From: Candidatus Kryptonium thompsonii
GTDB lineage: Bacteria; Bacteroidota; Ignavibacteria; Kryptoniales; Kryptoniaceae
Length of the DNA: 64,000 bases
Direction: 5' to 3'
Assembly (NCBI GenBank): GCA_001442925.1
Contig: LDXX01000004.1
Coordinates: 313,001-377,000 of the forward strand
Position numbers and translations under genes: made by a program. Shown here piece by piece: positions 25,359 through 37,455 of the stretch. The notes below the pieces were generated by a model. It did not search any database. It was not told the DNA's origin and was given only the letters and a program-made list of their open reading frames with translations. Positions within the stretch are counted from its first letter, which is position 1. Every line of letters begins with the position of its first letter.

Positions 25359-26589
<1,231 letters not shown>

Positions 26590-26616: not shown

Positions 26617-27075
26617 TTATTTTATCAAACTTGCAACTTTTGATTCAAGTGCAGCGAGTCGTTCTCTTATTTGAATTGCAATATCGATCTTTTCGTCAAG
26701 ACGTTTTATCTCTGTCCTAAACTCAGTCTTAAATGCGTCTAATTCGCTGCGAACATTATCAATATCTTTTTTCAGTCCGGAAATATCGGCTTTTAATTCA
26801 TTTTTTAATCCGGAAATCTCAGTTTTTAATTCATTACGAACAAGTTCAATTTTTTCATCAACTCGCCTAAGCCCAGAATCAATTTTTTCATCGAGTCGAG
26901 TAAGTCCAGAATCGATTTTTTGTTCAAGTCGTCCAAGTCCAGAATCAATTTTTTCATCAAGTCTTTTAATTTCTGAATCAAATCTCGTCCTTAACTCCTG
27001 AATGCTTGATTTAATATCGTGAAGTTCTGGAACTATAAGCTCTTGAATTATTTTTGCTACATCTACCTTTGGCAT
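26617..27075 (-). CDS. Coiled-coil protein of hendecad repeats inserted between rplU and rpmA
   Basis: A 152-residue soluble protein of unknown function that is almost entirely coiled coil. From residue 38 it is built of 11-residue units: [66 protein letters not shown], then a looser unit and [11 protein letters not shown] at 125. The 11-residue period implies a right-handed or mixed coiled coil. There is no signal peptide or membrane span. Its ATG overlaps the rplU stop (TAATG) and it ends 27 nt before rpmA, so it should be made together with L21 and L27. Confidence 0.8.
26767..26964 (-). repeat. 33-bp tandem repeat within the coiled-coil gene
   Basis: Six consecutive 33-bp units encode residues 38-103 of the hendecad protein. 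The first three units are most alike at DNA level, which suggests recent duplication; the later ones have diverged. Confidence 0.7.
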
Positions 27076-27392
27076 TAACTTTCAAAGTAAATTTTATTGA
27101 TTTCGATTTGGGTATAGTTTTGGCGATGTCCTTTTGTTACTTTATAACCTTTGCGACGCTTTTTCTTAAAAACGATAATTTTTTCTCCCTTTACATGGTC
27201 AAGAACCGTTGCTTCAACAAAAGCTCCGGGTACATATGGATTTCCGATATAAGTTTTTTCGCCGTCTTGAAGTAAAAGGACATTCTCAAGTTTAATTTTG
27301 CTTCCGGGTTCTTCTTCAAGTTTTTGAACGAAAATTTTATCGGACTCCTTCACCTTGTATTGATGCCCACCAATTTTTATAACTGCAAGCAT
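27075..27392 (-). CDS. rplU: 50S ribosomal protein L21
   Basis: A 105-residue L21 of normal length, with MLAVIKIGGHQYKVKESDKI at the N-terminus, VLLLQDGEKTYIGNPYV in the middle and the family C-terminal KKRRKGYKVTKGHRQNYTQIEI core. AAGGGA lies just before the ATG. It is the first gene of the minus-strand run rplU - coiled coil - rpmA - mdh and is divergent from der, with about 145 nt between them. Confidence 0.97.
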   Translation of the reverse strand: MLAVIKIGGHQYKVKESDKIFVQKLEEEPGSKIKLENVLLLQDGEKTYIGNPYVPGAFVEATVLDHVKGEKIIVFKKKRRKGYKVTKGHRQNYTQIEINKIYFES

Positions 27393-31362: not shown

Positions 31363-32658
<1,296 letters not shown>

Positions 32659-32741
32659 AGGGTTAGCAAGTTTGATTTTGCCCCCGATTTTTATTATTTT
32701 TACAAAAATTTTGCAGGAAAACCCAAAAGTTTTTGATTTTT

Positions 32742-34661
32742 ATGGAGAAAATAAAGGTTAAATTGCCTGATAATAGTGTTTTGGAGGTAGATAAAGGGAC
32801 GACACCTTTGCAGATAGCTGAAATTTTAAGCAAGCGGCTTGCTAAGGATGCAGTTGCGGCAAAAGTTAACGGTGTTGTGATAGATCTTACTCGTCCACTT
32901 GAGGAGGATTGCGAACTTCAAATCTTGACTTTTGATGATCCTGAAGGTAGGGAAGTATTTTGGCATAGTTCAGCTCACCTTATGGCACATGCGATTGAAG
33001 AACTTTTCCCAGGTGCAAAGTTTGGCGTTGGTCCACCAATTGAAGATGGATTTTATTACGATGTTGATGTTGATAAACCGCTTACAGTGGAAGATCTTGC
33101 TAAAATTGAGGAAAAGATGAAAGAGCTTGCACAAAGGGATGAGCCTTATGTTAGAAAAGTTGTCACGAAAGAAGAAGCGCTTGAATTTTTTAAAAAGAAG
33201 GGCGATCCATATAAAGTTGAAATCATAGAGCAAATTGAGGATAATGATATAATAACCTTATATAGCGAGGGAAGTTTTACTGATCTATGTCGTGGCCCGC
33301 ATTTGCCATCAACTGGGAAGATAAAATATGTTAAGTTGCTAAGCATTGCGGGAGCTTATTGGCGTGGCGATGCAAAGAATAAAATGTTGCAGAGGGTTTA
33401 TGGCGTTGCTTATCCGAAAAAGGAACTCCTTGATGAGCATCTAAGACGACTTGAGGAGGCGAAGAAAAGGGATCACAGACGGCTTGGGAAGGAGCTTGAG
33501 CTTTTTGTTTTTCATGATATTGCTCCAGGTGCACCTTTTTGGTTGCCTAAGGGGATGATCATTTTCCGTGAGCTTGAGAAATTTATTCGTGAAGAACTCG
33601 ACAAGCGTGGTTATGAGGAAATTTCAACTCCAATCCTTGTAAAGAAAGATCTATGGGAGAAATCGGGACATTGGGAGCATTACAAAGAAAATATGTTTGT
33701 GCTTGAAGTTGAAGATGAAATTTATTCTTTAAAGCCGATGAATTGCCCTGAGAGTACGTATGTCTATAAGATGCGAACAAGGAGCTATAGAGATTTACCA
33801 CTGCGACTTGCGGAGATAGGAAGATTACACAGGAATGAAATTTCGGGTGCTCTTGGTGGAATGTTTCGCGTTAGGCAAATAACGATGGATGATGCGCATA
33901 TTTATTGTAGGCCAGATCAAATTTTAAACGAGATAAATGAGCTAATTGATTTTATAAATTATGTTTACGGAATTTTCAAGTTTCAACCAGCGTATTATCT
34001 TTCAACGAAGCCTGATAACGCAATGGGAGATCCAGCCTTGTGGGAGCAGGCTGAACAAGCGTTGAAGATGGCACTTGAGCAAAACGGGATAAAGTATGGG
34101 TTAAAAGAGAAAGAAGGGGCATTTTACGGTCCTAAAATAGATGTTCAAATTAAGGATGCGCTTGGCAGAGATTGGCAGGTTGCAACGATTCAGCTTGACT
34201 TTGTGATGTTGCCTGAAAGATTTGATTTAACTTACATTGATGTTGATGGCCAACCGAAGCGACCAGTTGCAATTCATAGAGCGATATTTGGTTCTTTTGA
34301 AAGATTTGTTGGGATTTTGACTGAACATTTTGCAGGTAATTTCCCGGTTTGGCTTGCGCCAGTTCAAGTTGCGGTTTTGCCGATAACTGATGCACAAAAC
34401 GATTATGCAAAAACAATTTGGGAGAAACTTAAACAGCAGAAAATTCGGGCGGAAATCGATTTGAGAAATGAGAAGATAACTTACAAGATAAGGGAAGCAG
34501 AGACCAAAAAGATTCCATATATGCTTATAATTGGTGAGAAAGAGAGAACAAGTGGGACAGTTTCGATAAGAAGGCATGGCAAGGGAGATCTTGGAGTGTT
34601 TGATTTGGAAAGTTTTATATCCCGAATTAAATTTGAGATAGAAAGCAAAGTTGTGGAGTGA
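32742..34661 (+). CDS. thrS: Threonyl-tRNA synthetase
   Basis: A 639-residue class II synthetase with all domains: N-terminal TGS (IKVKLPDNSVLEVDKGTTPLQIA), the editing domain with HSSAHLMAHAIEE and CRGPHLP, the catalytic core (motif 1 onward, MNCPEST zinc cysteine, FRVRQITMDDAHIYC, AIFGSFERFVGILTEH) and the anticodon-binding domain. ATG 32742 is preferred to TTG 32733. No T-box or operator-like leader was recognised in the 83 nt upstream. It begins the translation block and ends 3 nt before the coiled-coil membrane gene. Confidence 0.97.
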   Translation: MEKIKVKLPDNSVLEVDKGTTPLQIAEILSKRLAKDAVAAKVNGVVIDLTRPLEEDCELQILTFDDPEGREVFWHSSAHLMAHAIEELFPGAKFGVGPPIEDGFYYDVDVDKPLTVEDLAKIEEKMKELAQRDEPYVRKVVTKEEALEFFKKKGDPYKVEIIEQIEDNDIITLYSEGSFTDLCRGPHLPSTGKIKYVKLLSIAGAYWRGDAKNKMLQRVYGVAYPKKELLDEHLRRLEEAKKRDHRRLGKELELFVFHDIAPGAPFWLPKGMIIFRELEKFIREELDKRGYEEISTPILVKKDLWEKSGHWEHYKENMFVLEVEDEIYSLKPMNCPESTYVYKMRTRSYRDLPLRLAEIGRLHRNEISGALGGMFRVRQITMDDAHIYCRPDQILNEINELIDFINYVYGIFKFQPAYYLSTKPDNAMGDPALWEQAEQALKMALEQNGIKYGLKEKEGAFYGPKIDVQIKDALGRDWQVATIQLDFVMLPERFDLTYIDVDGQPKRPVAIHRAIFGSFERFVGILTEHFAGNFPVWLAPVQVAVLPITDAQNDYAKTIWEKLKQQKIRAEIDLRNEKITYKIREAETKKIPYMLIIGEKERTSGTVSIRRHGKGDLGVFDLESFISRIKFEIESKVVE

Positions 34662-34664
34662 GTG

Positions 34665-35171
34665 ATGAGCTTTTATGAGATACTTACGCTTGGTGGAGTG
34701 ATGGCGACAATTCTTGGCATATTTTTAACTTTGTATGCAATTATAAACAATAAAACTTTGAAAGCTGAGGCAAGGAACACGAACGAGCTTATAAATCAAT
34801 TCAGGAAGGAACATCACGAGACAGTGCGAATTATGTCCGGAAATCTTGATGAGTTTAGAAAAGAGCATCGTGAGACGATGCGAGTTATGTTGGAAAATCT
34901 TGAAGAGTTCAGGAAGGAGCATCGCGAGACGATGCGGATTATGTTGGAGAATCTCGATGAGTTTAGGAGGGAGCATCGTGAAACGATGCGGGTTATGTTG
35001 GAAAATCTCGAAGAGTTTAGGAAAGAGCATCGCGAGACAATACGAGTTATGTCTGAAAAGCTTGATGAGTTCAGAAAATCGCATGAGGAAACCATTAGAT
35101 ATATTGCAAATTTGATTGTCACAAACGGTGAGAGGACGAGACAGCAAATAAGGAAAAAAGCAAAGCGTTAA
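34665..35171 (+). CDS. Membrane-anchored coiled-coil repeat protein between thrS and infC
   Basis: A 168-residue protein of unknown function. The N-terminus has one membrane span (LGGVMATILGIFLTLYAII, about residues 7-27). After a short basic linker come six 18-residue units of the type LDEFRKEHRETMRVMLEN (residues 43-150), then a basic C-terminus (RTRQQIRKKAKR). The regular EFRKEHRET pattern with spaced hydrophobics predicts a long charged helix or coiled coil projecting from the membrane; orientation is not clear, but the basic C-terminus and absence of cleavage site favour a cytoplasmic tail. It starts 3 nt after thrS (GTG 34662 is an alternative) and ends 26 nt before infC. Confidence 0.8.
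   Translation: MSFYEILTLGGVMATILGIFLTLYAIINNKTLKAEARNTNELINQFRKEHHETVRIMSGNLDEFRKEHRETMRVMLENLEEFRKEHRETMRIMLENLDEFRREHRETMRVMLENLEEFRKEHRETIRVMSEKLDEFRKSHEETIRYIANLIVTNGERTRQQIRKKAKR
34791..35114 (+). repeat. Six 54-bp tandem repeats
   Basis: Units run 34791-34844, 34845-34898, 34899-34952, 34953-35006, 35007-35060 and 35061-35114. The middle four are closely alike; the outer two are degenerate. The array is free of stops in several frames on both strands, which creates spurious open frames. Confidence 0.85.
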
Positions 35172-35184
35172 ATTTCAAAACAAC

Positions 35185-35200
35185 AAGGGGAGCTGCCATA
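35185..35200 (+). promoter_or_regulatory. infC ribosome-binding site and AUA start codon
   Basis: AAGGGGAG at 35185-35192 is a strong ribosome-binding site, followed after 5 nt by ATA at 35198-35200, in frame with infC. No ATG, GTG or TTG is in frame between the preceding stop and the ATG at 35282, which lies too far inside the conserved N-terminal domain. Confidence 0.75.
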
Positions 35201-35812
35201 GAGAAAGAATTACGCGTTAATGAACAAATCAAGGTCCCACGAGTTAGAGTAATAGATGAAAATGGGCAGTCAATTGGTATAATGAGCACGCGTGACGCGT
35301 TAAGGTTAGCTGAGGAGAGAGGTTATGATCTTGTTGAAGTTGCTCCCCAGGCTAATCCGCCTGTTTGCAGGTTGATGGATTATGGGAAGTACAAGTATGA
35401 AAAGCAAAAGGAAGAGAAGCTTCACAAAAAGCAAAGAGCAGCTGCTGTTCTGAAAGAGTTGAGGTTTCATCCAAATATGGGCGAGCATGATTTTCAGTTT
35501 AAAGCGCGTCATGCGAGAGAATTCATACTTGATGGACACAAGGTTAAAGCGCAGGTTATTTTTAAAGGTAGAGAAATTTTGCACACGGAGTTTGGAGAAA
35601 AGATATTAAAAAGATTGATCGAGTTTTTATCCGATGTTGCACGGGTTGAACAAGATATAAAGCTTGAGGGAAGTTCAATGAGTGTTTTATTTGCACCGGA
35701 TAAAAGGAAAATTCAGATGTTAAAAGAGCAGGAAGAAAAAAATAAACAATCTGGAGGACAAAAGAGCAATGCCGAAGGTGAAGAGCAATCGCGCAGCAAT
35801 GAAGCGCTTTAA
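35198..35812 (+). CDS. infC: Translation initiation factor IF-3, predicted AUA start
   Basis: A 204-residue IF-3, which binds the 30S subunit and rejects non-canonical start codons. The first ATG (35282) would remove the conserved N-terminal segment, but the frame continues upstream with [20 protein letters not shown] and [16 protein letters not shown], exact family features. The only plausible start with a ribosome-binding site is ATA at 35198. IF-3 genes commonly use AUU or similar rare starts for autoregulation. The C-terminal domain ([29 protein letters not shown]) is intact, followed by a Glu/Lys/Gln-rich tail that overlaps rpmI by 44 nt. Confidence 0.93.
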
Positions 35813-35963
35813 AGTTACAGCGACTGGAAAGATAAAAAGACAAAAAGCTGGTAGAAGTCACCTTGCTACAGGTAAATCAAGAAAAAGAAAAAGGCAGCTT
35901 CGCAAGCCAACGCTTGTGCATCCATATGAAGAGAAAAGAATTAAACAATTGATTCTGGCTTGA
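35769..35963 (+). CDS. rpmI: 50S ribosomal protein L35
   Basis: A 64-residue L35 with the canonical start [20 protein letters not shown] and body [22 protein letters not shown]. The ATG lies inside the infC reading frame, so the first 44 nt are shared with the infC tail in another frame. GGAGG at 35753-35757, also inside infC, serves as its ribosome-binding site. rplT follows after 31 nt. Confidence 0.96.
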
Positions 35964-35994
35964 TTTTTTAAAATTAAATTTGGTGAGTGAAAAG

Positions 35995-36339
35995 ATGAGA
36001 GCAACAAATAAACCTGCTTCAAGGAGAAGGAGAAAGAAGATACTTGAAAGGGCGAAAGGATTCTGGGGAATGCGTGGCAATACCCTAAGGCAAGCTAAAG
36101 ATCATGTTGCAAAGGCACTTCAATACTCATATCGCGACAGAAGAACAAAGAAGCGAGAATTTAGAAGACTTTGGATAGCAAGGATAAACGCAGCAGCAAG
36201 ATTAAATGGAACCACTTATTCAAAACTTATTTCAGCTTTAAGAAAGAAGCAGGTTGAAATTAATCGAAAGATGCTAGCTGATCTTGCTGTGAATAATCCT
36301 GATGCTTTTTCAGAAGTCGTGAAATTTGCATTTAGTTAA
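35995..36339 (+). CDS. rplT: 50S ribosomal protein L20
   Basis: A 114-residue L20 needed for early 50S assembly, and in many bacteria the autoregulator of the infC-rpmI-rplT operon. It shows [47 protein letters not shown] and the C-terminal [19 protein letters not shown] 35995 has GGTGAG 7 nt upstream; a TTG at 35980 would add five residues. A strong hairpin terminator starts 7 nt after the stop. Confidence 0.96.
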
Positions 36340-36346
36340 AATTTTG

Positions 36347-36401
36347 CTCCCATCATTCGGGTTATTTGATGTTGTTTAATCCCGAAGATGGGAGTTTTTT
36401 T
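36347..36401 (+). terminator. Terminator or attenuator between rplT and pheS
   Basis: CTCCCATCATTCGGG (36347-36361) pairs with CCCGAAGATGGGAG (36381-36394), about 14 bp with one bulged A, a 19-nt loop, and seven T directly after. It separates the ribosomal-protein genes from pheST, as the pheST attenuator does in E. coli. Complete termination would cut off pheS unless a promoter lies after it, so attenuation or partial read-through is likely (inference). Confidence 0.85.
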
Positions 36402-36444
36402 ATTTGAATTGACAAATTTGAACAAAGATCGGCATAAATTGAAA

Positions 36445-37455
36445 ATGATTAATCAGATTGAAGAAGTTAAAAAGAAGTTCCTTGAGGAAATTGAAACCGT
36501 AAAAGACGAGAAACAGCTTGAGGAATTTAGAGTCAAATACCTTGGGCGAAGGGGGATAATTCAAACATTATTTGATAAGCTTAAAGAAATTCCACGCGAG
36601 GAAAAACCAACGATTGGGAAATTTTTAAACGAATTTAAAGAACTTGCGCAGATAAAATTTGATGAGAAAAGGAAAGAAATTGAAAGTGGGAAACGAAAGG
36701 TTGGTGAGTTAGTTGACTTAACGATTCCGGGTAGGTTTAAATACACCGGTAGAAAGCATCCGCTTACGCAGACACTTGAAGAAATAAAGAAAATTTTTGT
36801 CGCGATGGGTTTTGAAATTGCTTCAGGTCCGGAGATTGAAGATGACTATCACAATTTTGAGGCACTTAATATCCCCCCTGAACATCCGGCGAGAGATATG
36901 CAAGATACGTTTTTTATCAAAGAGAATATAATTCTGCGAACCCACACATCGCCAGTTCAAATAAGGGTTATGGAATCAAAACAACCGCCAGTTAGAATCA
37001 TTGCCCCGGGAAGGGTTTACAGGAATGAGGCAATAAGTGCAAGAAGCTATTGTTTATTTCATCAAGTTGAGGGTTTGTATGTTGATGAAGGTGTTTCTTT
37101 TGCGGAATTGAAGGGGACATTGCTTTCATTTGCAAAACAAATGTTTGGAAGTAGTGTCAAGTTGAGGTTCAGGCCAAGTTTTTTCCCATTCACTGAACCA
37201 AGCGCGGAAGTTGATGTAAGTTGCTTTATCTGTGGGGGCAAGGGCTGTAGGGTTTGTAAATACGGTGGATGGCTTGAAATTCTTGGTTGTGGTATGGTTG
37301 ATCCAAATGTTTTTAAGTTTGTTGGTTATGATTCTGAAAAATACACCGGCTACGCCTTTGGGATGGGAGTTGAAAGAATAGCAATGTTGAAGTATGGAAT
37401 TGATGACATAAGATTGTTTTATGAGAACGATTTTAGGTTCCTTGAGCAGTTTTAG
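36445..37455 (+). CDS. pheS: Phenylalanyl-tRNA synthetase alpha subunit
   Basis: A 336-residue catalytic subunit. The N-terminal coiled coil is followed by the class II core with [19 protein letters not shown], the motif 2 region [28 protein letters not shown], and the C-terminal [31 protein letters not shown] 36445 is chosen; an in-frame ATG at 36388 lies within the terminator stem. An unusual [16 protein letters not shown] segment near residue 258 holds four cysteines that could bind zinc, as seen in several PheS lineages. pheT follows. Confidence 0.96.

Follow-up and report, generated by a model that had tools for sequence, protein, structure and literature searches.

Rods of α-helix held at the membrane by an N-terminal anchor belong to several described systems. 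In the peripheral stalk of the F-type ATP synthase (PMC6131620), subunit b has an N-terminal span with N-out/C-in topology; its long cytoplasmic helix shows an eleven-residue periodicity and ends in a partner-binding C-terminal tip. The tail of ZorA, from the Zorya defence system, is likewise a membrane-anchored, long cytoplasmic helical rod, and in small signal-anchored coiled-coil proteins such as DUF948 a single span at the N-terminus leads into a cytoplasmic coiled coil. Here we describe a gene of Candidatus Kryptonium thompsonii, found in a stretch of 64,000 nucleotides (the window), whose predicted product would resemble all three in general layout and differs from each of them.

Unlike subunit b, the protein is encoded outside any atp operon, changes length by tandem repeats and ends in a different tail. 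Among the matches shown for this 168-aa protein, the best 25 of 39 from Pfam and those from NCBIfam, there was no subunit-b model, and one paralogue (L002) gave a single weak subunit-B match (E 0.18). Its stalk is built of 11+7 modules with a period of 3.60 and would be nearly straight, as judged from the sequence and from a monomer model that is blind to supercoil sense. In contrast to ZorA, it has a single span and lacks the MotA/ExbB/TolQ membrane domain; the PADLOC matches to ZorA are weak, cover the rod only and look compositional, and no ZorB neighbour was seen in the thrS-infC loci. Unlike the DUF948 proteins, with which it has no tail in common, it scores 13.5 bits against that Pfam model, short of the gathering cut-off of 37.2.

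Results

A repeat gene between thrS and infC

The first-pass annotation had placed a small gene 3 nt from thrS and 26 nt from infC, and the open reading frame coordinates bear this out. The thrS stop codon lies at 34659-34661, the ATG-initiated frame of 168 codons ends with its stop at 35169-35171, and infC begins at 35198 (ATA GAG AAA GAA). The features of the locus, in window coordinates, are the following.

32742-34661, + strand: thrS, the upstream gene of the operon (from the list of open reading frames; direct neighbour of infC in the order relatives G007 and G010)
34655-34658, + strand: GGAG, a likely ribosome-binding site within the end of thrS (read from the sequence)
34665-35171, + strand: gene of the membrane-anchored repeat protein, 168 aa (MSFYEIL...KKAKR), supported by an open frame, same-locus orthologues in five other genomes of the genus, third-position bias and dN/dS
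34689-34745, + strand: codons of the single membrane span (residues 9-27, LGGVMATILGIFLTLYAII), from hydropathy
34800-35069, + strand: five units of 54 nt, or 18 residues, starting at 34800, 34854, 34908, 34962 and 35016 (repeat finder and motif positions)
35070-35168, + strand: conserved tail with a sixth, degenerate unit, FRKSHEETIRYIANLIVTNGERTRQQIRKKAKR (alignments, and a tail profile that finds all paralogues above shuffled controls)
35198-35812, + strand: infC (IF-3), start codon ATA; its I-E-K-E-L-R start is conserved across the genus

Since the GGAG overlaps the end of thrS, the two genes may be translationally coupled. From the short spacing on both sides, and from a promoter scan in which promoter-like sites were not in excess, we infer that the repeat gene is co-transcribed with infC. 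The rare ATA start codon of infC (window 35198-35200) occurs in all seven genomes of the genus; in G007 and G010, infC apparently starts with ATC.

Because the repeat period is divisible by three, the 54-nt array is open in several frames, on both strands, and the open frame proves little by itself. When the five repeat copies are compared, their differences split 10/18/73 over codon positions 1/2/3, and dN/dS of the non-repeat ends, in pairwise comparisons of orthologues, is 0.03-0.12 where computable, with dS near saturation in most comparisons. Given this third-position bias and the low dN/dS on the ends, the + frame is translated as protein and the gene is real. The purifying selection acting on the ends speaks against a purely neutral gene.

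A role at the RNA level was also considered. The repeat hairpins of the window's species are stronger than those of synonymous codon shuffles; however, the excess is absent in the other five orthologues, and an RNA role was rejected as not conserved. Rfam gave no match in window 32000-37000.

Span, repeats and tail

The single membrane span that had been claimed was recovered as the best 19-residue hydropathy window, with a Kyte-Doolittle mean of 2.20. An N-terminal span lies within the first 30 residues of all nine proteins tested (Kyte-Doolittle maximum 1.75-2.66). It is preceded by E and followed by NNKTLKAEAR in the 168-aa protein, and in every family member examined the flank is negative or neutral on the N-side and basic on the C-side. 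An N-out/C-in topology is predicted.

Tandem Repeats Finder detects 5.1 copies of a 54-nt repeat between 34803 and 35078, with a score of 328. In the protein there are five full 18-residue FRKEHRETMRVMLENLDE units, with motif positions exactly 18 residues apart, which read FRKEHHETVRIMSGNLDE, FRKEHRETMRVMLENLEE, FRKEHRETMRIMLENLDE, FRREHRETMRVMLENLEE and FRKEHRETIRVMSEKLDE. The conserved tail opens with a sixth unit, FRKSHEETIRYIANLIV, which merges into the C-terminal YIANLIVTNGERTR, so that the six units claimed earlier are reached if the tail unit is counted; only five are full. In each unit F1, H5, M9, M12 and L16 recur, with minor substitutions and a 4-4-3-4-3 spacing. About half of the rod residues are charged or His, and the C-terminus is rich in K and R. 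The tail, or tip, has the consensus Y-I-A-x-L-I-V-x-x-G-E-R-T-R and a hydrophobic moment of 0.54-0.61 in the thrS-infC proteins. AlphaFold2, run as a monomer on a 4-sequence alignment, gives one continuous helix over residues 3-166 with a mean pLDDT of 91.

Length and helical phase within the genus

Seven genomes, the window's genome among them, make up the genus sample; their lineage, known from hot springs, has been described under the name Ca. Kryptonia (PMC4737851). The repeat gene is found between thrS and infC in six of the seven, with product lengths of 115, 131, 150, 161, 168 and 190 aa. Neither of the outcomes that the first-pass annotation had named as counter-evidence, a lack of conservation of the gene or its frame in relatives and repeat changes that break the frame, was seen for the thrS-infC gene. 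The one genome without the gene is that of the closest relative, G002, where infC follows thrS directly on an intact contig with both flanks intact. Since G002 and G000 are sister species (93% identical across their concatenated proteins, bootstrap 88, nodes deeper than this pair being weakly supported), the simplest reading is loss, which shows that the gene is dispensable in G002. In the order relatives G007 and G010, thrS adjoins infC with no gene between.

Successive FR motifs in the six orthologues are separated by only 7, 11, 18 or 29 (18+11) residues. Steps of 7, 11 and 18 residues correspond to about two, three and five turns of α-helix, so the rotational position of the tail would stay nearly constant at any length. 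The hydrophobic period is 3.58-3.61 in all six, a peak at 3.6 being partly built in for any 18-residue repeat. Rod length ranges from about 56 to 132 residues between species and is not conserved; it is helical phase, rather than length, that is preserved. The proposal of a charged, membrane-anchored rod varying by repeat number thereby gains support, with the frame conserved. As for a structural ruler, the variation by repeat number holds, whereas a fixed length is disfavoured by this range and by a relative that has no repeats.

A family defined by tail and span

A profile of the tail, made from the six thrS-infC proteins and no others, gives 24-43 bits on relatives at hemB, at tig, in Nitrospinota and in G686 (87 aa), against at most 8.3 bits for shuffled controls. 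Alignments and this profile together identify the YIAxLIVxxGERTR C-terminal tail as a family feature. Paralogues of 205-207 aa lie between hemB and a sodium-dependent transporter gene (hemB-SNF) in G000 and G003. This paralogue is also absent from G002: at the junction (L072 in G002, L070 in G000), G002 keeps sequence similar to both the upstream and the downstream flank, and the paralogue frame is missing. G001 has a tig-clpP paralogue on the minus strand (L078) with its own near-identical 54-nt array, in which one 55-nt unit shifts the frame, either a real breakage or a single-cell assembly error. The hemB match in the same genome (L076/L077, G001:C41:220-1288) is split in two, and its first part contains a TGA, through either a frame change or an assembly error.

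Outside the genus, the Nitrospinota MAG G433 encodes two family proteins, near nitroreductase and ileS genes. The second contains an 18-residue pair, WREESREDHRIHEETMKK and WRDESREDHKTHEETLKY, spaced as in the Kryptonia units, and HIYQTRILRRW directly follows the span of a Nitrospinota protein. A lone tail fragment in this MAG, MFYEETIRYIANLIASEG (L049 1495-1563), is probably the remnant of a lost copy. In G686, from another family of the same class, the 87-aa relative has no tandem repeats; a 78-aa single-span protein of that genome (L096 775-1011, minus strand), ending in ...KIAELIVTEADKTRELIK, scores 13.8 bits and is a possible, weak distant relative. A 22.7-bit match in G095 (L046) was not counted, as it lies in a 43-aa frame. 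Altogether, the profile finds the tail in the Kryptonia genus, in one other relative of the class and in one of 77 Nitrospinota genomes. None of the relatives outside thrS-infC, at hemB, at tig, in Nitrospinota or in G686, adjoins infC. Because these relatives lie in different contexts, we take the family to be defined by tail and span, and not by the repeats or by proximity to infC.

No match to the 168-aa protein reached its cut-off in Pfam (best 25 of 39 shown) or in NCBIfam, and the matches in PHROGs were all weak, almost every one being to a family whose function is unknown. Known families in Pfam, NCBIfam, PHROGs and PADLOC were rejected, since the matches were sub-threshold or of a composition-like coiled-coil kind, and profile matches to solved structures (designed bundles, apolipoprotein A-I, MotB) were read as coiled-coil noise. 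A phage or plasmid origin was likewise rejected, as no relatives were found in the viral and plasmid collections. We found no paper on the gene in the literature. By these comparisons, the repeat protein is a member of a small, scattered and previously unnamed family.

A second expandable gene

Another expandable coiled-coil gene lies in the window at 26617-27075 on the minus strand, between rplU (27075-27392) and rpmA (26320-26589). It occupies this position in the six genomes with a readable locus (G000-G004 and G006), has conserved ends, and ranges among intact copies from 78 aa (G004) to 319 aa (G003); there are two tandem copies in G001, and the copy in G006 is partly N. Like the thrS-infC gene, it combines conserved ends with an expandable helical middle and is inserted in a translation operon of the same genus. 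It differs in its termini, no membrane span was noticed in it, and the tail profile does not match its product; as judged from these sequences, the two genes are unrelated.

Discussion

The best reading of our results, in which we have moderate confidence, is that the protein is a membrane-tethered cytoplasmic helical stalk with a conserved tip, constrained in phase and co-expressed within a housekeeping operon. A short N-terminal signal anchor is predicted to leave the N-terminus outside and the remainder in the cytoplasm. The helical stalk, which may be absent or lengthened by tandem repeats, would associate with its like through the F-H-M-M-L stripe (18 residues per five turns); the resulting straight bundle would rise from the inner face of the cytoplasmic membrane, with the tip about 10-20 nm away, and could serve as a tether or scaffold for a partner of the tip. 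Rod length would be loosely constrained; insertions or deletions rotating the tip out of phase were not seen. Alternatively, the tail could bind the membrane as an amphipathic helix, or do no more than cap an oligomer. The position between thrS and infC most likely provides co-expression in a strong housekeeping operon and not a role in translation initiation. The protein is probably not a translation factor; an operon-linked role retains some likelihood, given that six species keep the gene at this locus.

In a more direct partnership, the gene would lie beside infC because the two work together, the rod fastening ribosomes, IF-3 or the nucleoid to the membrane or serving as a ruler; the first-pass annotation had suggested a tether for ribosomes or the nucleoid, or a ruler. 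The retention of the operon position in six of seven species, the basic end of the tail, and the occurrence of the rplU-rpmA gene and the tig-clpP paralogue near translation and folding genes would agree with it. Yet the gene was lost in G002 and is absent at this locus in G007 and G010, its paralogues occur at hemB-SNF, those of Nitrospinota lie close to nitroreductase and ileS genes, and a roughly two-fold variation in length is unexpected for a ruler. With no relative outside thrS-infC lying beside infC, nothing that we found links the protein to IF-3, ribosomes or the nucleoid beyond the presumed co-transcription, and we regard this proposal as very unlikely. Patchy presence, including the absence from G002 with intact flanks at two loci, would also suit a gene that is selfish or close to neutral, encoding a low-cost membrane-anchored helix without important function; such a gene would duplicate, move into housekeeping operons, expand and disappear again. 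Paralogues at several sites, the copy broken by a 55-nt unit in the G001 assembly and the lone Nitrospinota tail fragment point the same way. However, dN/dS of 0.03-0.12 and ends strongly conserved in six species indicate purifying selection, and neither mobile-element features nor plasmid or viral collection matches were seen, which makes this origin rather unlikely in our judgement.

The structural premises of the stalk have their own competitors. Were the topology reversed, an inner-membrane-anchored rod could cross the periplasm and set or bridge the spacing of the envelope as Lpp does, its basic C-terminus resting on the cell wall; the predicted lengths of about 10-24 nm would fit the periplasm, and the C-terminus is indeed K/R-rich. 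Such an arrangement has a slim chance, as the positive-inside rule puts the rod in the cytoplasm in all members examined, with Nitrospinota the clearest case; by eye, neither a lipobox nor a cleavable signal was seen, and length is not conserved. It is equally doubtful that the rod acts as a monomeric charged single helix, a stiff spacer in place of a coiled-coil bundle. The abundance of charged or His residues and the high confidence of the isolated AlphaFold2 helix speak for it, but that helix came from a monomer-only prediction, and the hydrophobic stripe of F, M, M and L is conserved in each repeat. A regular stripe of this kind is unusual for a monomeric single helix.

The tethered stalk with a conserved tip remains our preferred account, and the gene family is real and conserved, with an unusual, phase-preserving variation in length. 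It defines an undescribed family that has no adequate Pfam, NCBIfam or PHROG match. An infC-adjacent gene with paralogues beside hemB or tig also calls for caution in reading function from operon position. The most intriguing fact that we saw is that one genus holds two independent expandable helical genes in translation operons. That the thrS-infC, rplU-rpmA and tig-clpP genes form a Kryptonia set linking protein synthesis to the membrane, with length tuned by phase-keeping steps of 7 and 11 residues, has a very slim chance indeed of being correct. The natural series of 115-190 aa at one locus offers a probe of how much variation in length a helical stalk tolerates while its phase is kept.
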